Virus record (IMG/VR): IMGVR_UViG_3300021424_000043
Coordinates: 1-54,468 of that record
Reading direction: 5' to 3' (one strand)
From: a virus
DNA length: 54,468 nucleotides
The translations under genes were made by a program, and so were the position numbers. Below the pieces are notes generated by a model. The model saw nothing but the letters and a program-made list of their open reading frames with translations, made no database searches and had not been told where the DNA came from. The stretch's first letter is position 1; every line of letters starts with the position of its first letter. Shown piece after piece: positions 38,246 through 48,998 of this stretch.

Positions 38246-38285
38246 ATAGATACCTTTCTAATATTTATCTTGTAAAGGTGTCTAT
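38246..38285. repeat. Inverted repeat enclosing a late promoter
   Basis: Arms 38246-38257 (ATAGATACCTTT) and 38274-38285 (AAAGGTGTCTAT), one G-T wobble. GATAAATA is in the 16-nt loop. The left arm touches the start codon of the 83-aa gene and the right arm covers the gp41 stop. Confidence 0.75.
38262..38269 (-). promoter_or_regulatory. T4-type late promoter core for 37994-38245
   Basis: GATAAATA on the minus strand, 16 nt before the ATG. Confidence 0.65.
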
Positions 38286-39670
38286 TGTCCTAAATCTCTT
38301 AATAATGACTTTAGTTTAGAAGCCCCTATATTTGCTGATACTTTGCTTGATTCTTCTGATATTGTATTAGCAGTAATCTGTGAGGTGTTCTTAATTTGTG
38401 CTAATAATTCACTACCTGTAGTCTGCGGTTTTGGGTCATTTAGATGATTGTTATCAGTAATACGTAGTGTTTCAACATCAAACGCAAGTTCAATCTTCTG
38501 ACCTACACCCGAACTACTACGTGTTTTCATCAACTGTATCTGATAAAGTCCACGCTCACGCATACTGCGACTTGTAAATATACCAAACACATTATCCGCA
38601 GTATTGATCTTACTGATACCACCTGCTATATGACTATGATCAAATTCGATTTCTTCAACTGCACTACGATTTAACTGACTAGCCGTTACAAACACTACAT
38701 TAAGTTCCTTAGCAAGATTGCGTAGTTCTTCGCTAACATACTTGTCTTTAACAAACAAATCATTGGGACTGACTTTAGCACTTACAGGCATGACTAAATC
38801 TAGATAGTCTACACACAAGAAGTCTACACGCATATCTGTTTGTATCTGTAATTCTTTTACATATGCTCTTATATCGTTGACATTGCTTTGTGCTGGCATA
38901 TATTTGATACGCAGTTGTCCAGACTTTTTAGATACCATCTTTACTTTCATTTCAACATTATCTAGATCCTTAAAGATTTCTCTAGTACTTGTATCTGTCA
39001 TCATACTATCTAATCTCATACTACATAAACCTTCACTCAACTCTAGAGTAATGTATACCCCATTCATACCTTTCTGTACCCAATTTACAGCAAGATTTTG
39101 CATGATCAAACTTTTACCAGAGCCACTACCACCTGCAAAGATTTGTAGTTCACCACGATTGAAACCACCATATAATTTATTATCCAGTGTAGGCCAGCCT
39201 GTGCTATTTTGTCCATTATTACTTTTTAATGCCATGAGTCTTGCACGTGGGTCAGCAAAGTAATCTGTACCCATGTCCTTCTGTAGAGAAATCTGAACAG
39301 CATCTTTGATCAGTTTTTCTACAGGCCCATATTCGCCCTTCTCAAGATAATCTGCGCTCTTAAGAATAGCCCTCTCAAGTTCTTGTCGTTTAGTAAACGA
39401 TTCAAATTCTTCTAGAAACCAATCATAATGCCCTTCATCTAATTCTGGAATAGTTTCTATACTGATTTCTGTAGTAGCCTTGATCTGAATTGGATCTGGC
39501 ATAACATTATATTTTTTAGTATGTTCTATTATGAACTCCGCAACAGGACGTAATCTACGATCAAAGTTAGCACCATTCATAATGTTCATAACACGGGTAT
39601 ACAACTCCGCATTCGTTACCATCATACGTAAAAATAATGTTTGAACTTCTATATTATAATCGTTTATCAA
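38282..39670 (-). CDS. 41: Replicative DNA helicase gp41 (DnaB family)
   Basis: 462 residues (T4 gp41: 475). Walker A GGSGSGKS at 180-187 and Walker B FLCVDYLDL at 284-292. DnaB-like motifs follow: VFVTASQLNRSA, HIAGGISKINTADNVFGI and IQLMKTRSSSGVG. The N-terminal ~130 residues form the helical collar. It unwinds the lagging-strand template 5'-3' with the gp61 primase. The TTG start at 39670 is kept because AGAGGAAG lies just upstream; it overlaps the end of the primase gene. Confidence 0.93.
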   Translation of the reverse strand: MINDYNIEVQTLFLRMMVTNAELYTRVMNIMNGANFDRRLRPVAEFIIEHTKKYNVMPDPIQIKATTEISIETIPELDEGHYDWFLEEFESFTKRQELERAILKSADYLEKGEYGPVEKLIKDAVQISLQKDMGTDYFADPRARLMALKSNNGQNSTGWPTLDNKLYGGFNRGELQIFAGGSGSGKSLIMQNLAVNWVQKGMNGVYITLELSEGLCSMRLDSMMTDTSTREIFKDLDNVEMKVKMVSKKSGQLRIKYMPAQSNVNDIRAYVKELQIQTDMRVDFLCVDYLDLVMPVSAKVSPNDLFVKDKYVSEELRNLAKELNVVFVTASQLNRSAVEEIEFDHSHIAGGISKINTADNVFGIFTSRSMRERGLYQIQLMKTRSSSGVGQKIELAFDVETLRITDNNHLNDPKPQTTGSELLAQIKNTSQITANTISEESSKVSANIGASKLKSLLRDLGQ

Positions 39671-40625
39671 GTTGCTTCCTCTTTACTTCAATTTTAATTT
39701 TGCTATTAGTAGTTGATTGTAAAATACTTAGTATAGTTGATAAGCGTCCATATTTTACTACACTATCGTTAATGTCCTTTATTCCTGGATTCCATTCAGG
39801 AATACTAACATAAAATCCTAAATCTAGCGCACGATTTATAATTTCTAATCCTGACTTATCTTGGTCTGGAACAATAATTATTTTTTTGTTTAATCTTGAA
39901 AGAATAGCAGCTTGCCCATCATTAATAGAATTTGTAGTCAAGGCACAACCATTTATACTAAGAGCATCAAATATACCCTCTGAAACAATACATACACTAG
40001 ATTCGGGCTTTTGTAAGTCATATCCAAATACAAATCCTTTTTGTTGTTCGTTTATAAATTTAGGTTTATGATCATCTAAATATCTGCTAGTATAACCTAC
40101 TATTTTATTTTCAAATGTATATGGAATAATAATACGATTTGCATTACGTCCTTCTGCATCAGGAGTACATAAAAAAGGATAATCTTCTAATTGTATTTTA
40201 CGATTTAGTAAATATTCTACAAATCTATTATGTTTTTGGTTATCTTTACTAATCAATTCAGCGTCAGGTAATTTAATTTCTTTAAATTTAATTATTCGTG
40301 CTTCTCGTTTAGCCTTAACAAAATCAATTAAATCTTTGTGCTGTAAACTTTCAAAACTCCATCTATCAATTTGATCTTTATCAATACCACAATACGAAAA
40401 CAATAGTCTTGTACTTCTGCTTAAACTTTTTCCTAAGGTAAATCCAGATTTGAAGCCACAATTGAAACAATGATAACTCCAGTTATCGCCATCAAACTTT
40501 ATACCCCCTCGACCTCTACGATCAGATTTATGTCCACGATACTGGCAGCATACAGCGTTAAAACTATGCCAACCACTTTGCGTTGTTTTTTTCTTGCCTG
40601 GAATTATTTGAAGAATATCGAACAC
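39654..40625 (-). CDS. 61: DNA primase gp61 (DnaG/TOPRIM type)
   Basis: 323 residues (T4 gp61: 342). The zinc-binding motif has C26/C27, H32 and YHCFNCGF (C53, C56). The TOPRIM core shows SEGIFDAL (215-222) and PDQDKSG (253-259). It makes RNA primers for lagging-strand synthesis and works with the gp41 helicase encoded in overlap downstream. GTG start at 40625. A TATAAT lies 6 nt before the GTG with a weaker -35 (TTGTTT, 16 bp), so the transcript probably starts at the start codon. Confidence 0.92.
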   Translation of the reverse strand: MFDILQIIPGKKKTTQSGWHSFNAVCCQYRGHKSDRRGRGGIKFDGDNWSYHCFNCGFKSGFTLGKSLSRSTRLLFSYCGIDKDQIDRWSFESLQHKDLIDFVKAKREARIIKFKEIKLPDAELISKDNQKHNRFVEYLLNRKIQLEDYPFLCTPDAEGRNANRIIIPYTFENKIVGYTSRYLDDHKPKFINEQQKGFVFGYDLQKPESSVCIVSEGIFDALSINGCALTTNSINDGQAAILSRLNKKIIIVPDQDKSGLEIINRALDLGFYVSIPEWNPGIKDINDSVVKYGRLSTILSILQSTTNSKIKIEVKRKQLDKRL

Positions 40626-41564: not shown

Positions 41565-41945
41565 ATGATACCTAAAGATTTTTTTAAAAAATTAAGTGAA
41601 AATCATCCTTTTATCAGCGTTTGCTCAGTAGCAAATCAAGATTATGTAGGGATAATGCAAAACCGTGATGATTCCTATACCACTATATATGATTATGGCG
41701 CTATAACAGATTTGCGTAACAAGCAAAAGTTCTTAGAATTAGGAGAAGTCTGGTGGTGGGAAAGCAATCGTCAGATACCAATTAATATATTTTTAAAAGA
41801 GGAATGGTCTATTTTTAGACCCTACATCAAGACTTTTAGTAACAAAAATCTAACACTAATACATGGGCCTATAATAAGTTTAAGTGAATTTAACAAAAAG
41901 CGAATACGTAGAAAAAGTATTACCTTAGTTCGTAAAATTTCATAA
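41565..41945 (+). CDS. Unknown plus-strand protein (126 aa)
   Basis: Alpha/beta protein with a distinctive Trp-rich motif (GEVWWWESNRQIPINIFL) and a basic C-terminus (NKKRIRRKSITLVRK). I do not recognise a function. It is a lone plus-strand gene between minus-strand blocks. Its stop region overlaps the stop of the convergent deformylase gene by 6 nt, with no terminator between them. Confidence 0.65.
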   Translation: MIPKDFFKKLSENHPFISVCSVANQDYVGIMQNRDDSYTTIYDYGAITDLRNKQKFLELGEVWWWESNRQIPINIFLKEEWSIFRPYIKTFSNKNLTLIHGPIISLSEFNKKRIRRKSITLVRKIS

Positions 41946-42425
41946 TTTTCGCCTACGCTTTTCTTTAGCGAGTGCTAGTGCTACAGGTCCAACCCTAGTA
42001 TCAAAACATATACCATCTAAATGATCTATCTCATGTTGGAAAACTCTGGCTTTAATACCTGTAAATTCTGTTGTAATTTTTTGACCTGATATGTCTTGAT
42101 ATGAAACTTGTATCCTACTACTACGATTAACGCGCAACCATAGTTTAGGAAAACTCAAACAGCCTTCTATATCTTTAATGACATCACCCTCTTTTATCAA
42201 AATTGAAGGATTAATTATAGCATAGAGTTGCTGTTCATTACCCATGATAAACAATCGTTTCTGTATTCCTACTTGTGGGGCGGCAAGACCTATACCATTG
42301 TTCTCAAACATAATCTTAGTCATGGCTTTGATCAATTCTGAAGGGTCGCCGTCGATATCAAAATCATATAATAAACTAATTTCTTGTAATTGTTTATGAC
42401 CTTCTTCAAGTAATTTGAGTTGCAT
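41940..42425 (-). CDS. def: Peptide deformylase
   Basis: 161 residues. All three signature motifs are present: GIGLAAPQ (44-51), EGCLS (87-91, metal Cys) and QHEIDH (130-135, two metal His and the catalytic Glu). It removes the formyl group from N-terminal Met of new proteins. Phage copies are known accessory genes and may favour translation of phage or short-lived host proteins. Its start overlaps the end of the DnaE-like gene by 20 nt, so it is translated in the same operon. Confidence 0.97.
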   Translation of the reverse strand: MQLKLLEEGHKQLQEISLLYDFDIDGDPSELIKAMTKIMFENNGIGLAAPQVGIQKRLFIMGNEQQLYAIINPSILIKEGDVIKDIEGCLSFPKLWLRVNRSSRIQVSYQDISGQKITTEFTGIKARVFQHEIDHLDGICFDTRVGPVALALAKEKRRRKL

Positions 42426-43038
42426 TTTCGCTTAATAAATTCATATGCACTACGACAAGATTTGCATAAGCAACAGCGTGTGACTTTTTAAAACTATATG
42501 TATCCTGCTTTAAATCCCATATTGTTTTACTTACTTCTTTCCAAGATAACCCAATCAAATGTTTTTTACCTGGTCTTATAACTGCTAGAAACATTGCTAA
42601 TCTTGGTATACTATTTATTGGCTCAGGCATGCGTTGTATAGAATTGTAATGATTACCTACGTGTATTAGTTGTTTTACAAAGTTTATATCGTTAAATAAA
42701 GCCCAGTTAGGTTCACGCATTAGTTCAACTAAATGTTTTTCATCACGTACCATTTTATATACATGTATATTAAGCATGTCTAGTTTCATGTAGCCACGTG
42801 CTTCAGCTATTTCATAATCTATGGATGCCATACCAGATACAGGATCATAGGGTATTTCTGTAACATAAACACCAGTAGCATGTTTACGTATGATTGATTG
42901 ATGATTTTTTTGTTTTGATACTTTTGCGTTGTACATTGCCGCAGGAATATGATTGATCTTTTCTAAGATTAGATCACGATTTCCAAAATCAATATCAATA
43001 TCACTACGAAATTTCATTTCCATCTTAGTAAAAACCAT
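42406..43038 (-). CDS. Miniature DnaE-like (C-family DNA polymerase) protein (210 aa)
   Basis: Motifs of bacterial Pol III alpha occur in the same order but compressed: SDIDIDF (12-18; D15/D17 match the E. coli PDFDVDF aspartates), KHATGV (52-57; KHAGGV), GYMKLDMLN (82-90; D87 matches the third catalytic Asp in VKFDFLG), AVIRPG (152-157; ALFRPG) and FKKSHAVAYA (183-192; FNKSHSAAYA). PHP, most of the fingers, and beta-binding and OB regions are absent. It may be an active mini-polymerase, a nucleotidyltransferase or a structural relic. It overlaps the 82-aa gene upstream and deformylase downstream. Confidence 0.75.
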   Translation of the reverse strand: MVFTKMEMKFRSDIDIDFGNRDLILEKINHIPAAMYNAKVSKQKNHQSIIRKHATGVYVTEIPYDPVSGMASIDYEIAEARGYMKLDMLNIHVYKMVRDEKHLVELMREPNWALFNDINFVKQLIHVGNHYNSIQRMPEPINSIPRLAMFLAVIRPGKKHLIGLSWKEVSKTIWDLKQDTYSFKKSHAVAYANLVVVHMNLLSENATQIT

Positions 43039-43262
43039 GTCTCTTTTTCTGGATCTTTAATTTCTATAAATAGTTGCGGAGGAAATCCTGCTACACGTAA
43101 AATCCAACTCTCCAAATCTTTACTACGCCATTCTACAAACTGCGATACGCTATTCATATCATATTTTCCTAAAGCATCATTAAAATTATCTTGTACATTC
43201 TCTGTTAGCCATGTTAATACTTCGTTTTTTTTATCATATGGCAATGTATGTCGCTTATTCAT
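43014..43262 (-). CDS. Small unknown protein between exonuclease and DnaE-like genes (82 aa)
   Basis: Basic N-terminus and a Trp-rich C-terminal half (SKDLESWILRVAGFPPQLF, ETWFLLRWK). No family is recognised. It overlaps the exonuclease gene by ATGA and the DnaE-like gene by 25 nt. The three are therefore translated together and may act together (inference). Confidence 0.7.
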   Translation of the reverse strand: MNKRHTLPYDKKNEVLTWLTENVQDNFNDALGKYDMNSVSQFVEWRSKDLESWILRVAGFPPQLFIEIKDPEKETWFLLRWK

Positions 43263-43804
43263 TTTTTAATACTTAGTTTCTTATATGCTTCTTGTACAAC
43301 AATAGCCTGACGTTCAGCATCTTCTACAGCCTTATGTGTAGTAACATGCCCTCCATCTTTTAATTTAACATCTGCAATTTCGTAAAGAGTTCGTGTATCT
43401 CTAACTGTATAGAATGGCCAAGGAATAGGATTAGGCCTTTCACTAGTCTGTCGCATACCTGTTTCACAAGCAACAATATCAAATGGCGCGCCATGACTCC
43501 ATACTGCTCTACGATTCCAACCTATCTTATATAGTATTTCCATACAGTCTTTAAATGGCAGTCTGTCACGTTCATCAAATGCTTCATCAAGCGCAGCAGG
43601 ATTTTGTTGGCTCCACCACTGAATAGTACTATCACAAATGATACGATTGTATTTTTCAGTTTGATCTTCGATTGTAGGCTTTAGTGTCCAACCCTCAGCA
43701 ATACCTTGACCATAAGGATCAAATCTTACAATACCAATAGTAAGGATAACACAATAAGGACTTGTGTCCAGTGTTTCCAAATCTATCATTAAATCATTTG
43801 CCAT
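43259..43804 (-). CDS. DEDDh 3'-5' exonuclease (Rv2179c/DexA-like)
   Basis: 181 residues with all five catalytic positions visible: D8/E10 in MIDLETLDT, D109 in SHGAPFDIVA, and H157/D162 in HKAVEDAERQ. This His-type order belongs to the DnaQ superfamily; the overall pattern resembles the Rv2179c-like/T4 DexA group. It degrades RNA or DNA 3'-5' and could proofread. It heads an operon of overlapping genes with the 82-aa and DnaE-like proteins and deformylase. A TTGACG/TATATT promoter sits 7 nt before the ATG. Confidence 0.92.
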   Translation of the reverse strand: MANDLMIDLETLDTSPYCVILTIGIVRFDPYGQGIAEGWTLKPTIEDQTEKYNRIICDSTIQWWSQQNPAALDEAFDERDRLPFKDCMEILYKIGWNRRAVWSHGAPFDIVACETGMRQTSERPNPIPWPFYTVRDTRTLYEIADVKLKDGGHVTTHKAVEDAERQAIVVQEAYKKLSIKK

Positions 43805-44081
43805 ACTTAAGAATATACACTATAAACTTCTTCTCGTCAAGTACCTTATAATCGTCGGTCATCATACCTTCGTTTGTTTCTATTGGTCTAAACCCATATT
43901 TGTTTTCAAGCCATATAGTAAATTCTCTATGATCTCGACTTTGTGTTTCGTTATAAAACTCTAGTTTGAGATTCTTTAGATTTGACCAATATTTGAAACG
44001 TGATAATCTTTTATCTATATTTGGATCGTCATCATCAAAATCTTGAAAATCTTTAGGAATTTGCATTACTTGCCCAAACAT
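43794..44081 (-). CDS. Small unknown protein (95 aa)
   Basis: Charged alpha/beta protein (YWSNLKNLKLEFYNETQSRD, FTIWLENKYGFRPIETNEGM) of the type often found next to other small phage genes; the function is unknown. It overlaps the upstream oxygenase gene by 28 nt. An internal ATG 15 nt downstream is an alternative start. Its 3' end overlaps the exonuclease start. Confidence 0.65.
   Translation of the reverse strand: MFGQVMQIPKDFQDFDDDDPNIDKRLSRFKYWSNLKNLKLEFYNETQSRDHREFTIWLENKYGFRPIETNEGMMTDDYKVLDEKKFIVYILKYGK
43812..43840 (-). promoter_or_regulatory. Sigma70-type promoter at leaderless spacing (exonuclease operon)
   Basis: TTGACG (43835-43840), 17-bp spacer, TATATT (43812-43817), then 7 nt to the ATG at 43804. 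It lies inside the 95-aa gene. Confidence 0.7.
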
Positions 44082-44766
44082 TATCCAGTTGTTTCACTTC
44101 TTCAAGTATACTACTATCAAGATAATTGATCAAGAGGGCTGGCCGATCATGCACACTAGGATTGGGCATACTACTATGAAGTATACGGCAGTTATATAAT
44201 AATACAGTACCCCTAAGCATATCTGGTTGTATGGCATTCTCAGTAAACCAGCGATCATAATTTCCAGTATAGCATTGTTTGATTTCATAGTTGCGCTTTT
44301 GACTATATGGAACTAATCCAGTGCTACCATTTTCTTTAGTAGTGTCCTCAAGTGAAATAATACATTGTATGCCTAATAATCTAGGGTCATAGTTCCATTT
44401 AGTAAATCTATGCGGAGTATCAACATGTGGGTTTATCCATGTTGATTTAGCATTGATAGTTACAACATCACTTACGTAAAATGCAAAGTTGGCGAAATTT
44501 TGAGTTACTAACGGATCCAATAATCTACGTATAGCCAATGTTTCTGGATAATCGTTTACTGTTTGGCTCCACCATACACTGATATCTTCTAGGTTCTTGA
44601 TATCGTCGCGTTCAGCATAAACTTTCTTGCTGCTGCTGGCACGTACAGGACGCAAGTCAAACATGCGTTTTCTGAAGTTTGTAATTAGATGATTAGGAAT
44701 AAAACTTTGCAAATTTATATATCCTTCGCCTCTTGATAGTGTTTCATGCATATTTTTCACATTCAT
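44053..44766 (-). CDS. 2OG-Fe(II) oxygenase, PhyH-like (237 aa)
   Basis: The iron triad is visible: NPHVD (H114, D116) and ILHSS (H197). R208 in DRPALLINY is placed to bind 2-oxoglutarate. The pattern resembles phytanoyl-CoA dioxygenase-type enzymes. These hydroxylate proteins, nucleobases or small metabolites; the substrate is unknown. It directly follows a second, different oxygenase gene, joined by ATGA. Confidence 0.85.
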   Translation of the reverse strand: MNVKNMHETLSRGEGYINLQSFIPNHLITNFRKRMFDLRPVRASSSKKVYAERDDIKNLEDISVWWSQTVNDYPETLAIRRLLDPLVTQNFANFAFYVSDVVTINAKSTWINPHVDTPHRFTKWNYDPRLLGIQCIISLEDTTKENGSTGLVPYSQKRNYEIKQCYTGNYDRWFTENAIQPDMLRGTVLLYNCRILHSSMPNPSVHDRPALLINYLDSSILEEVKQLDNVWASNANS

Positions 44767-45401
44767 TCTACTTCATAAGTTTTTATATTTCGTAATGATT
44801 GAATCATCATAGGTTCACTTTTTTCAAATAACTCTGGACTTGATGCTAGTATAAAACTGTTACAACTATATCTTACACCACTATCAATATTTGAAACTTC
44901 ATGCACCCAAAAAGGACCTGCAGGGAAAATAAGAGCATCACCTTGATTCATACGTATTGTATATTTACCGTTCCAAAATTTGAATATGCCACCCTCAAAT
45001 TCATCGTTTAGTTGAAATGTACAACTAGCATAGATAAATGGATTGCCGTCAATATGTGGATGTATCCAACCGCCTGGATTATACTTCATAAGTCTATAAC
45101 GATGACTACATTTTAAATATATTTTTAGTAATGGAATATGAAAACTTTCAAATTTTTCTAGATGCTTTACCCATTCATTTATCATGTACTCAGTTTTATT
45201 GAATAGCAAGTTATAGGTATATGATATAGGTCGTAAGTCTACTTTTGTATATGTTGATACTGTATTAATACCAGTATTGGCATGCATACAACTTTCTTTA
45301 TGTGCTTTTGCTTGTCTTGATTCATATTCATCAATAAGCTTCTTACAATCTTCTTGACTAATTACATTTTTCAAATGTAAAATTTGATTTGTCATATCCA
45401 T
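44763..45401 (-). CDS. 2OG-Fe(II) oxygenase, prolyl-hydroxylase-like (212 aa)
   Basis: The double-stranded beta-helix core has RLMKYNPGGWIHPHIDG (iron ligands H116 and D118), then FPAGPFWVHEV (H167) and GVRYSCNSFI (R177 for 2-oxoglutarate). This resembles prolyl-4-hydroxylase/PKHD-type phage enzymes. The TTG at 45410 is in frame, but the ATG at 45401 follows the upstream stop by one base and has AGGTTGA before it, so I use the ATG. It is coupled to the PhyH-like gene, giving two oxygenases in tandem. Confidence 0.88.
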   Translation of the reverse strand: MDMTNQILHLKNVISQEDCKKLIDEYESRQAKAHKESCMHANTGINTVSTYTKVDLRPISYTYNLLFNKTEYMINEWVKHLEKFESFHIPLLKIYLKCSHRYRLMKYNPGGWIHPHIDGNPFIYASCTFQLNDEFEGGIFKFWNGKYTIRMNQGDALIFPAGPFWVHEVSNIDSGVRYSCNSFILASSPELFEKSEPMMIQSLRNIKTYEVE

Positions 45402-45402
45402 A

Positions 45403-45603
45403 TTATTCAACCTTTAGACTGAACCAAATCGCATCTGTTTCTTCTTTGAAGCAGAAATCCATATAATCTTTACAAACATTGGTAGTAAATCTATCACCCG
45501 GTAAACCAAAATATTCTATTGCTATAGCGCAAATATCATTCCAATTTTGGTAATAGTTAGTCCAATGTATTCTTACACGGTATTTATTGTTGTCAATAAC
45601 CAC
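45403..45603 (-). CDS. Small unknown protein (66 aa)
   Basis: Aromatic-rich small alpha/beta protein (RIHWTNYYQNWNDICAIAIE, DAIWFSLKVE). It resembles short phage proteins of unknown function that occur in chains of overlapping genes. GTG start at 45603, overlapping the 3' end of the zinc-finger gene by 11 nt. Confidence 0.65.
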   Translation of the reverse strand: MVIDNNKYRVRIHWTNYYQNWNDICAIAIEYFGLPGDRFTTNVCKDYMDFCFKEETDAIWFSLKVE

Positions 45604-46303
45604 CGGCTTTTAATAAACTTTTAACTTCTTTCAACATATCACTATGACGTTTGAAACGTATAGCCCACTGTTCTGGTTGTATATAGTCTACAATCATTTT
45701 GATTTGTGTCTCATCCAAATTAGACAGGAATTCAGTGCCACTTTCACTTTGATATAACATCCAAGGACTTATTTTGCCCTTAGTTATATTATAACAAATA
45801 CGATTTTTGTTACCATATCTAAAGATATCTTTAGTTTGTATACCATCTTGTTTAGCAAGATCAATAGTTGTTTCAATACTACGTGCAATAGCATCTAGTG
45901 GATCTTCTTCTTTTAAGTATGATATAATAAAATCAGTATAGGACTTATCCTTCGCCCAACGATCAATACTAATCTTATTTTTAATCAAATAATTAGCATA
46001 TCTTCCTACATTGATAACATGTGCATCGATGCAGTAATGTCCAAATTTTACAAAGGCAGAATAATATGCACTCTTTATAAAATCCATATACTGACGTTGC
46101 TTCTTGCCTGCTGTGTTTTTTTTATAAAATTCTAGCCAGGTATTATAGCCAATAATATTACCTTTAAGATCACGTTGTTGATATCTGCGTTTTGTTTCGC
46201 ACATATGTACAATTATACTTGTTTCTCTAGCGAACTCCTTCCCACAGAATTCGCAGACATGTTTAATTACCTGCGTTTTTTTCGTATTCTTGGATTTCTT
46301 CAT
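45593..46303 (-). CDS. Zinc-finger protein of unknown function (236 aa)
   Basis: An N-terminal zinc finger, CEFCGKEFARETSIIVHMC (ligands about C17, C20, H33, C37), is followed by an all-helical body (FIKSAYYSAFVKFGHYCIDA, SIDRWAKDKSYTDFIISYL) and a C-terminal EQWAIRFKRHSDMLKEVKSL. It probably binds nucleic acid. The exact role is unknown; it follows the gp62-like gene, where T4-like genomes carry replication and transcription regulators. The ATG at 46303 is preferred to one at 46318 because it shortens the overlap; either is possible. Confidence 0.65.
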   Translation of the reverse strand: MKKSKNTKKTQVIKHVCEFCGKEFARETSIIVHMCETKRRYQQRDLKGNIIGYNTWLEFYKKNTAGKKQRQYMDFIKSAYYSAFVKFGHYCIDAHVINVGRYANYLIKNKISIDRWAKDKSYTDFIISYLKEEDPLDAIARSIETTIDLAKQDGIQTKDIFRYGNKNRICYNITKGKISPWMLYQSESGTEFLSNLDETQIKMIVDYIQPEQWAIRFKRHSDMLKEVKSLLKAGGY

Positions 46304-46844
46304 CAGTAATAAGCTCATTTAAAACATTAAGGTCTGTAATTTTCATAGTTGGAAATTTTTCTGCCAAATAACAAGTTCGTTTTTGTTGTTCAATATATAA
46401 CTTAGATATTTCATCTATCAATTTAACATCAACCTTAGGATGTAATTTTGTAAAATATTTTACAACTTCTTCTCTAGTAGCGGGCTTTTTGTATTCAACA
46501 ACTGATTTACTAAGTGTCGGAAGATATTCTCTAAATTGTTTTCCTTTGCCTAGACTGGCTGCACACAAAGTTAGCCATTGTAATTTAGGATTATCCTGCA
46601 TTTTTTCTGCAAACATATGTGTGTTTGCTATACGATTAGTTTGTTTGAGTGCAAGATTTTGGTCTTTGCCTTTAACACTTGACATCCATATTAATAACAT
46701 ATAAGGCTTAAACTTGCGCTTTTGCTCTTCAGTTAAGTTGTCATAATAATTGTAATCCTTATTATCAATGGCGGCTAAAGCCTCGAAGAGGTCAAAATCT
46801 ACATTCGTTAACTTTTCATCAACTGATGTCTTTGTTTTGGACAT
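46263..46844 (-). CDS. 62: Clamp-loader small subunit-like protein (gp62-like)
   Basis: 193 residues (T4 gp62: 187), all-helical. The segment YMLLIWMSSVKG, then KLQWLTLCAASLGKGKQFREYL, corresponds in position and pattern to the gp62 AVYAMNLIGSG and LMAAVPRGKRYGKW elements. The C-terminus ends in an acidic helix (LITDEEIQEY). With gp44 it loads the gp45 clamp; neither gp44 nor gp45 is in the window. A TTGAAA/TATAGT promoter lies 8 nt before the ATG within the upstream gene. The call is by pattern only. Confidence 0.55.
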   Translation of the reverse strand: MSKTKTSVDEKLTNVDFDLFEALAAIDNKDYNYYDNLTEEQKRKFKPYMLLIWMSSVKGKDQNLALKQTNRIANTHMFAEKMQDNPKLQWLTLCAASLGKGKQFREYLPTLSKSVVEYKKPATREEVVKYFTKLHPKVDVKLIDEISKLYIEQQKRTCYLAEKFPTMKITDLNVLNELITDEEIQEYEKNAGN

Positions 46845-47525: not shown

Positions 47526-47554
47526 ATTTTACTACTATATAAATCAATAGTCAA
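47526..47554 (-). promoter_or_regulatory. Sigma70-type promoter at leaderless spacing (166-aa gene)
   Basis: TTGACT (47549-47554), 17-bp spacer, TAAAAT (47526-47531), then 6 nt to the ATG at 47519. Confidence 0.75.
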
Positions 47555-48998
47555 GTTTCTCCAATGTAAATGGATACTTTGCTTCCTTATAAAATGCTTT
47601 TCTTTGTGTCAAATGACGTTTGGCAAATTTACAATCGCTTGTAATATCCCAAATCTCTACATGATCCTTGTCTTCCGCTTTTCTAATACCGCGTCCAATC
47701 GATTGGATAACTCTGACAAATGACTTGCCGGGCTCAATAAGAACAAGATTGAAAATGCGAGGGATATTAATACCCACAGCAGCAACTCCATAAGTGGCAA
47801 CAATAACTTTAGTATTGCTAGTCTTAATTTCATCATATTCTTCTTTACGCTCCATTAGTTTTGTCTCGCCTGAGATGAATACACTATCATCTATACGTGA
47901 TTGTAATTCGCGTCCTGCATTGACACGATCAACAAGTACTAGTGTATTACCACTATCTTTAATTTTGTTAATTAACTGGCCAATTTTGTCTAGGCGCTCA
48001 CTATGCTCTAACAAATATTTGAGTTCGCTTTGATAATTGGTAAACTCTACACCATCTTTTAATTGAACTATGTTCACATGACATTGTGCTAACACACCTT
48101 TTTCTTGTAATTCAGCCGCGCTAAGTTTTCCTATTACAGGTCCCAGACTTACAAGTAAACTAATTTGCTCATACATGGCTTTAGGTATAGTGCCTGTCAA
48201 CCCCCAGCGTATAGGTATTTGACTAAATGGGCCTGTAAGTAAGGACTTTAACGCATCAGCCTTAGCCATATGTACTTCATCTACCATTACACAAACAACA
48301 TCCTCGATAAACTCTTTGATACTGACTTCTGCTTCGCCTGCTTTAGTATTCTTTAACATATTGTTAAGGCTTTGCCAAGTACAGATCGTATGCTGCTTGT
48401 TATATTCTTTTCTATCTCCAAAGTACACACCAACATCTAAGCCTAGATTGATGTAGTCTGCTTCAGTTTGCACTACAAGGCTTTTATTTGGAACTATCAC
48501 TATGCTGCGTCCATAATGCTCAACGCTTTTTGATAGAGCCGCTGTCATTATAGTCTTACCTGCACCTGTGGCTACCTCTTGAATACACTGAGTGTTATTT
48601 AAAAAGTTATTGATAATTTCTACCTGATAATCACGAAGGACGATTGGTTCGCCTTGTTGCGTATGACCTTTAGTCCAAACCTTATTGCTAAAACTATCTT
48701 CTTTAATCTGATCAAAACTATATGATGTTTGATACTCGCGTAGGTCTACAAGATCAATATCGTAATCATATTCTTGTAGTATGGGTACAACATCTGGTAT
48801 TAAATTTATATATGTACTGCCTGCCAAACTACAATAACTTACCTTTCCGTTCCATCTACCAAGACGGACTGCGGGTAGATAACGTGCGCCCGGAATTTCA
48901 TGTTCAAATTTACGCATCAATGCCTTACGGCAGTCCAACTCAAGACCTTCTATCTTGCAGTTGACTTCATCTTTGATAATTATTTTCGCTGTTCTCAT
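47544..48998 (-). CDS. uvsW: UvsW DNA/RNA helicase
   Basis: 484 residues (T4 UvsW: 503). Superfamily 2 motifs: LRDYQVEII (Q-type motif), ATGAGKT (143-149, Walker A), DEVH (240-243, Walker B), WGLTGTIP (motif III-like), VATYGVAAVGINIP (motif V) and QSIGRGIRK (motif VI). The N-terminal ~100 residues include RYLPAVRLGRWNG and match the UvsW-type DNA-binding domain. It remodels stalled forks and R-loops and unwinds branched recombination intermediates. Its start overlaps the CWC gene by 32 nt. Confidence 0.95.
   Translation of the reverse strand: MRTAKIIIKDEVNCKIEGLELDCRKALMRKFEHEIPGARYLPAVRLGRWNGKVSYCSLAGSTYINLIPDVVPILQEYDYDIDLVDLREYQTSYSFDQIKEDSFSNKVWTKGHTQQGEPIVLRDYQVEIINNFLNNTQCIQEVATGAGKTIMTAALSKSVEHYGRSIVIVPNKSLVVQTEADYINLGLDVGVYFGDRKEYNKQHTICTWQSLNNMLKNTKAGEAEVSIKEFIEDVVCVMVDEVHMAKADALKSLLTGPFSQIPIRWGLTGTIPKAMYEQISLLVSLGPVIGKLSAAELQEKGVLAQCHVNIVQLKDGVEFTNYQSELKYLLEHSERLDKIGQLINKIKDSGNTLVLVDRVNAGRELQSRIDDSVFISGETKLMERKEEYDEIKTSNTKVIVATYGVAAVGINIPRIFNLVLIEPGKSFVRVIQSIGRGIRKAEDKDHVEIWDITSDCKFAKRHLTQRKAFYKEAKYPFTLEKLDY

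Follow-up and report, generated by a model that had tools for sequence, protein, structure and literature searches.

A minimal Pol III alpha split into two proteins and standing beside a B-family polymerase has been described in the group 2.2 jumbo phages from genome comparison (Iyer et al. 2021, PMC7824862). In that description, the enzyme comprises an N-terminal, NTP-binding protein and a C-terminal, Mg2+- and template-binding protein that are encoded far apart. No report of a biochemical or other experimental test of the split enzyme was found in the searchable literature.

The window analyzed here, that is, the whole stretch of 54,468 nucleotides, is T4-like (homologues of UvsX, UvsY, UvsW, gp41 and gp61 are present) and adds a new member to this already described system. 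What is added to the 2021 description is the invariance of active-site residues, the R390E replacement together with further residue losses, and the coupling of the C-terminal half (C-half) to an upstream DEDDh exonuclease gene. The initial annotation had considered a C-family core unexpected in a T4-like phage replicating with a B-family polymerase. A B-family polymerase was indeed found in 10/10 cultured phages carrying the C-half, and motifs A, B and C could all be read in 8 of the 10 records inspected, but the combination itself had already been reported. No B-family polymerase was found in the 54-kb window, which is a fragment, so that neither this enzyme nor the phage's own N-terminal half (N-half) of the split polymerase is seen there. 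The split polymerase of Slicko01 (141 kb) showed that such enzymes also occur outside the jumbo phages (>200 kb), and at least 550 sequence relatives of each half were present in IMG/VR.

Apart from the two halves, a larger DnaE-like protein was observed in one T4-like contig (G012, the contig of L148; 54886-55167; locus L220 1504-3183). This contig encodes both minimal halves and a separate 559-aa DnaE-like protein without PHP, which carries GSS, DIDLDF, KHCGG, KID and RAHA motifs and lies near the B-family polymerase.

Gene, homology and fold of the C-half

The open reading frame initially annotated at 42406-43038 was confirmed on the minus strand. Its start is most likely the ATG at 43017, giving a product of 203 aa, because it and the stop codon of the preceding ORF share the sequence ATGA and because relatives begin at the same position (Table 1). 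The protein contains the motifs DxDxD, HATGV, KLD, RPGK and FKKSHAVAY and matched the "DNA polymerase" family PHROG 11778 at E=4e-55, while a Pfam search of the C-half returned no match. Orthologues in RefSeq phages, e.g., RaK2 and PBECO4, are annotated as 'DNA polymerase'.

Table 1. Features at and around the C-half gene; positions are those of the window.
Feature	Position	Strand	Remarks
gp41-type DnaB-like replicative helicase	38282..39670	-	downstream in the conserved cluster
gp61-type DNA primase	39654..40625	-	downstream in the conserved cluster
Peptide deformylase	41940..42425	-	overlaps the C-half end by 20 nt; an adjacent gene, no component of the enzyme
C-terminal half of split minimal Pol III alpha	42406..43017	-	203 aa; PHROG 11778
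Seven extra codons of the initially annotated ORF	43018..43038	-	probably untranslated; start at 43017 preferred
Small 82-aa ORF	43014..43262	-	directly upstream of the C-half, ATGA overlap; no family match
DEDDh 3'-5' exonuclease	43259..43804	-	Rv2179c-like, PF16473; D8/E10, D109, H157/D162; overlaps the 82-aa ORF
UvsW-like helicase	47544..48998	-	upstream in the conserved cluster

The five DnaE landmarks listed in the initial annotation were borne out in order and with one-to-one positions in E. coli DnaE. In the numbering of the 203-aa protein, positions 5-11 correspond to PDFDVDF (400-406), position 46 to the histidine of HAGG (511), 78-80 to KFD (553-555), 148-150 to RPG (639-641) and 176-180 to FNKSH (756-760). 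A single-sequence phmmer search of the C-half against PDB sequences did not find DnaE, and a HMMER profile reached it only at E 1.4, a suggestive result in which the matches in the RPG and FNKSH regions were colinear. As these searches fell short, homology is argued here from profile-profile and fold comparison. The profile-profile comparison of 19 C-halves with 11 C-family cores gave a probability of 97% and E=1e-10, in an alignment that was colinear from H511 to past the FNKSH helix, and so agreed with the initial assignment to the C family.

The AlphaFold2 model of the C-half, built with 45 sequences, had a pLDDT of 91 and a pTM of 0.79. Residues 1-202 of the model aligned with E. coli DnaE 397-781 and with PolC 968-1299 (full length). 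The fold comparison scored Z 9.7 over 198 residues for PolC (3f2b) and Z 8.5 for the 397-781 segment of E. coli DnaE (2hnh). The top 15 rows were all C-family enzymes, and the best unrelated fold reached Z 3.8; the clear matches of the model were thus to C-family polymerases only.

The alignment covers only the palm and part of the fingers, in accordance with the initial observation that PHP, most of the fingers, and the beta-binding and OB parts are missing. No counterpart of the PHP, thumb, HhH/beta-binding or OB parts was found in the 203-aa protein. The thumb was judged from spacing: about 35 residues separate the DxDxD strand from the H511 equivalent in the C-half (residues 11-45), versus about 105 in E. 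coli DnaE (406-510), which implies that the thumb is gone. In a thumbless enzyme, the grip on DNA would have to come from elsewhere.

The N-half and the point of division

Altogether, the C-half gene codes for one half of a reduced Pol III alpha, the other half being encoded by a separate gene, and not for a complete core. The description of the protein as a miniature catalytic core therefore stood as regards the C-family palm but not as regards completeness, the half with the GS motif being a separate phage protein. The GS motif (R362-G363-S364), needed for a complete active site of the Pol-beta type, is absent from the C-half, which begins beyond it; in relatives it is carried by the N-half, where GRGS was found in 91/91 sequences. 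This protein of about 175 aa was identified with PF07733 in 10/10 cultured phages having a C-half and in a 130-kb contig (G006). Its C-terminal 100 residues matched E. coli DnaE 277-393 (hhalign against 11 C-family cores: 97.8%, E 1e-12). The AlphaFold2 model of the N-half (pLDDT 93) aligned through residues 78-178 with the same segment, 277-393, at Z 7.3-11.8, all rows being C-family.

Counted from GxGRGS, the N-half ends after 35-41 residues in 91/91 sequences, and after exactly 35 in 79 of them. Since the N-half ends at the equivalent of position 393 and the C-half model starts at the equivalent of 397, the two proteins lie end to end along the DnaE palm, which is divided at 393/397. Among 206 loci (with flanks of up to 8-10 kb if the contig was long enough), neither a fusion of the halves nor both halves in one locus was seen, and in cultured genomes the distance between them ranged from about 11 kb (Slicko01) to more than 200 kb (Phosso).

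No convincing N-half was found in the 54-kb window, a fragment, by PF07733 and a GRGS motif scan; a contig whose C-half is about 70% identical to that of the window (G010) does contain one. The N-half was present in 10/12 large contigs with a C-half, and the C-half was detected in only 7/14 large contigs with an N-half, the PHROG 11778 search at E up to 10 giving nothing in the other seven. These contigs may be incomplete records, so the missing C-halves are unexplained rather than contradictory. The divergences of the N- and C-halves were correlated (r 0.92, 26 genomes, 0/2000 permutations) in a comparison of these two proteins only, and this may reflect nothing beyond shared inheritance.

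A 359-kb contig (G025, the contig of L070) encodes an N-half and a B-family polymerase, with no C-half even at E up to 10. It is either incomplete or has the N-half alone.

Residues kept and lost, and what the enzyme may do

Residues D6, D8, D10, H46, G49, K78, D80, R148, P149, K151 and F176 never varied in 101 distinct C-halves, and H180 and Y184 were kept in 100/101, the remaining sequence being truncated. In terms of DnaE, the equivalents of D401, D403, D405, K553, D555 and H511 were invariant in about 100 sequences, as was that of H760 save for one truncated sequence. The metal-binding D401, D403 and D555, whose role is described in PMC3919608, correspond to D6, D8 and D80, found in 101/101 C-halves; D405 is conserved in DnaE groups and is Asn in PolC (PMC3919608). 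H760, the steric gate on the finger helix (PMC8485763), corresponds to H180. The initial annotation was thus correct that all catalytic aspartates are retained, none being lost in any of the 101 homologues, and its D87 (D80 here) is the D555 equivalent. Its numbering of the other two needs revision, as D401 and D403 correspond to its D13 and D15 (D6 and D8 here) and its D17 to D405.

This conservation bears on two readings in which the protein would not act as an enzyme. The N-half of phage CBB (CBB_328) has been called truncated (PMC5259590), in keeping with a degraded remnant of a host-derived dnaE. Such an origin is extremely improbable for a family with hundreds of sequence relatives, invariant active-site residues and a conserved gene order, and a truncated host dnaE is refuted by that conservation. 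If the protein instead had no catalytic role and served the phage's B-family replisome as a scaffold or accessory factor, or joined host Pol III as the initial annotation also offered, this would fit the loss of polymerase-specific residues and the B-family replicase already owned by the relatives. We regard this as quite unlikely, as metal ligands, GS motif and steric gate that do not vary across about 100 diverse sequences per half would be unexpected in a dead scaffold. The host partnership in particular was rejected: the phage supplies its own N-half, which completes the site, so that host DnaE is unneeded.

Other positions were changed or lost. The position of R390 in the N-half is occupied by Glu in 89/91 sequences and by Asp in 2/91, a family-wide charge reversal (R390E), and R396, F609-Q610, Q687-E688 and R709 are without counterpart, falling in deleted or unmatched segments. 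R390, R396, F609, Q610, Q687, E688 and R709 were all invariant in 11/11 full-length C-family cores. Changes at such polymerase-specific positions, together with the missing thumb, argue that the split enzyme is probably a nucleotidyltransferase with altered substrate handling and not merely a small DnaE.

With palm, metal ligands and steric gate retained, the changed pocket (R390E, loss of R709) could belong to a two-chain nucleotidyltransferase that does not copy a template but serves in end-tailing, in nick or gap repair, or in transfer to some other acceptor. The charge reversal in 91/91 N-halves, the loss of R396, R709 and Q687-E688, and the absence of the thumb and most of the fingers speak for such an activity, whereas the invariant H760 equivalent, DxDxD, K553 and RP, and the position of the genes among replication genes, speak against it, and we consider it unlikely.

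The preferred reading, with a probability of about 0.68, is that the C-half belongs to a two-protein minimal C-family DNA polymerase acting as a two-chain second polymerase or gap-filling enzyme. Homology, fold, split point, residue conservation, co-occurrence and gene context are its demonstrated parts; as regards activity, which we infer, a thumbless two-chain accessory polymerase or gap-filling nucleotidyltransferase is most likely. In the proposed mechanism, the GRGS motif would come from the N-half, whose gene lies elsewhere in the phage genome, and the C-half would contribute three aspartates for Mg binding, the equivalents of K553 and H511, the RPG segment and the helix that carries the steric gate (H760 equivalent). 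Both would assemble into one Pol-beta-fold active site. Working beside the B-family replicase, the enzyme would then incorporate dNTPs, either as a non-processive second polymerase or as a gap-filler, and the neighbouring DEDDh exonuclease may assist it. Against this reading count the lost residues and the R390 replacement, the missing thumb, the large N-half contigs in which no C-half was detected, and the failure to find an N-half in the 54-kb fragment. A more far-reaching version is held only tentatively, as a possible but rather improbable one: the halves might form an obligate heterodimer with a Pol-beta fold but no thumb, whose nucleotide pocket has been remodelled (R390E, loss of R709) and which has a DEDDh exonuclease of its own as partner. 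Such an enzyme might constitute a two-gene polymerase type that works differently from DnaE/PolC and has a separate role in the phage, in repair or in the synthesis of one strand.

If active, the split enzyme would be a DNA polymerase with a palm put together from the products of two unlinked genes and with a size far below that of any bacterial C-family enzyme, in a widespread phage group that already has a B-family replicase. With an active enzyme, the suggestion of Iyer et al. that it models ancestral Pol III (PMC7824862) could be put to the test, and the R390 charge reversal and the exonuclease coupling provide specific hypotheses on its role.

Gene neighbourhood and comparison with known systems

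The C-half lies in a cluster with the order uvsW - ... - C-half - convergent small gene - ... - primase - helicase, which is common, wholly or largely, to RaK2, PA5oct, Atu_ph07, Phosso, Vibrio phage 2.275.O, PBECO4, SCTP-2 and Slicko01 (141 kb). In RaK2 and PBECO4, the N-half gene is close to that of the gp44 clamp loader. Of 60 non-redundant loci, those of the window's clade, 34 have a DEDDh exonuclease gene within 2.5 kb upstream of the C-half, and in 19 of these 34 it adjoins or overlaps the C-half, usually as ATGA. In the window, the single 82-aa ORF, with homologues at the corresponding position in L130 and L148, separates the two, and all three genes overlap. A DEDDh gene was near the N-half in only 5/91 cases. 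A different exonuclease, DnaQ-like and annotated 'DNA polymerase exonuclease subunit', is encoded a few genes upstream in RaK2 and PBECO4. To judge from the gene arrangement, the coupling suggests that the DEDDh exonuclease may be a proofreading partner of the split enzyme.

Several other genes of the cluster were recorded. The convergent small gene (41565-41945 in the window, PHROG 11637) comes after the C-half in all cultured relatives inspected, including RaK2, PBECO4 and Phosso, and in the window the deformylase gene stands between the two. Two adjacent genes for 2OG-Fe(II)/PhyH-type oxygenases occupy 44053-45410; these, the exonuclease and the deformylase are insertions in an otherwise conserved cluster. 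The cluster also contains a C2H2-like zinc-finger protein (45593-46318, PHROG 11058), and similar-looking proteins lie directly upstream of the C-half in L009, L013, L026 and L183, often with an ATGA overlap.

Compared with known systems, the arrangement, as seen in the cultured relatives, resembles the group 2.2 split Pol III alpha (PMC7824862) in its two distantly encoded proteins, the T4-type B-family polymerase alongside and the lack of PHP and other Pol III domains. It differs in the DEDDh exonuclease often coupled upstream in the window's clade, an exonuclease being unmentioned in the main text of that paper. The orthologues RaK2 gp411, PBECO4 gp488 and Phosso 437 (PHROG 11778; about 38-46% identity) occupy the same place between UvsW and the primase-helicase, but have a coiled-coil or structural ORF upstream instead of the exonuclease. 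With bacterial DnaE and PolC, the split enzyme shares the palm fold, D401/D403/D555, K553, H511, R639-P640, F756 and H760, and with DnaE also D405. Unlike them, it is divided at 393/397, lacks PHP, thumb, HhH, OB and clamp-binding parts along with most of the fingers, carries R390E, and is missing R396, F609-Q610, Q687-E688 and R709.
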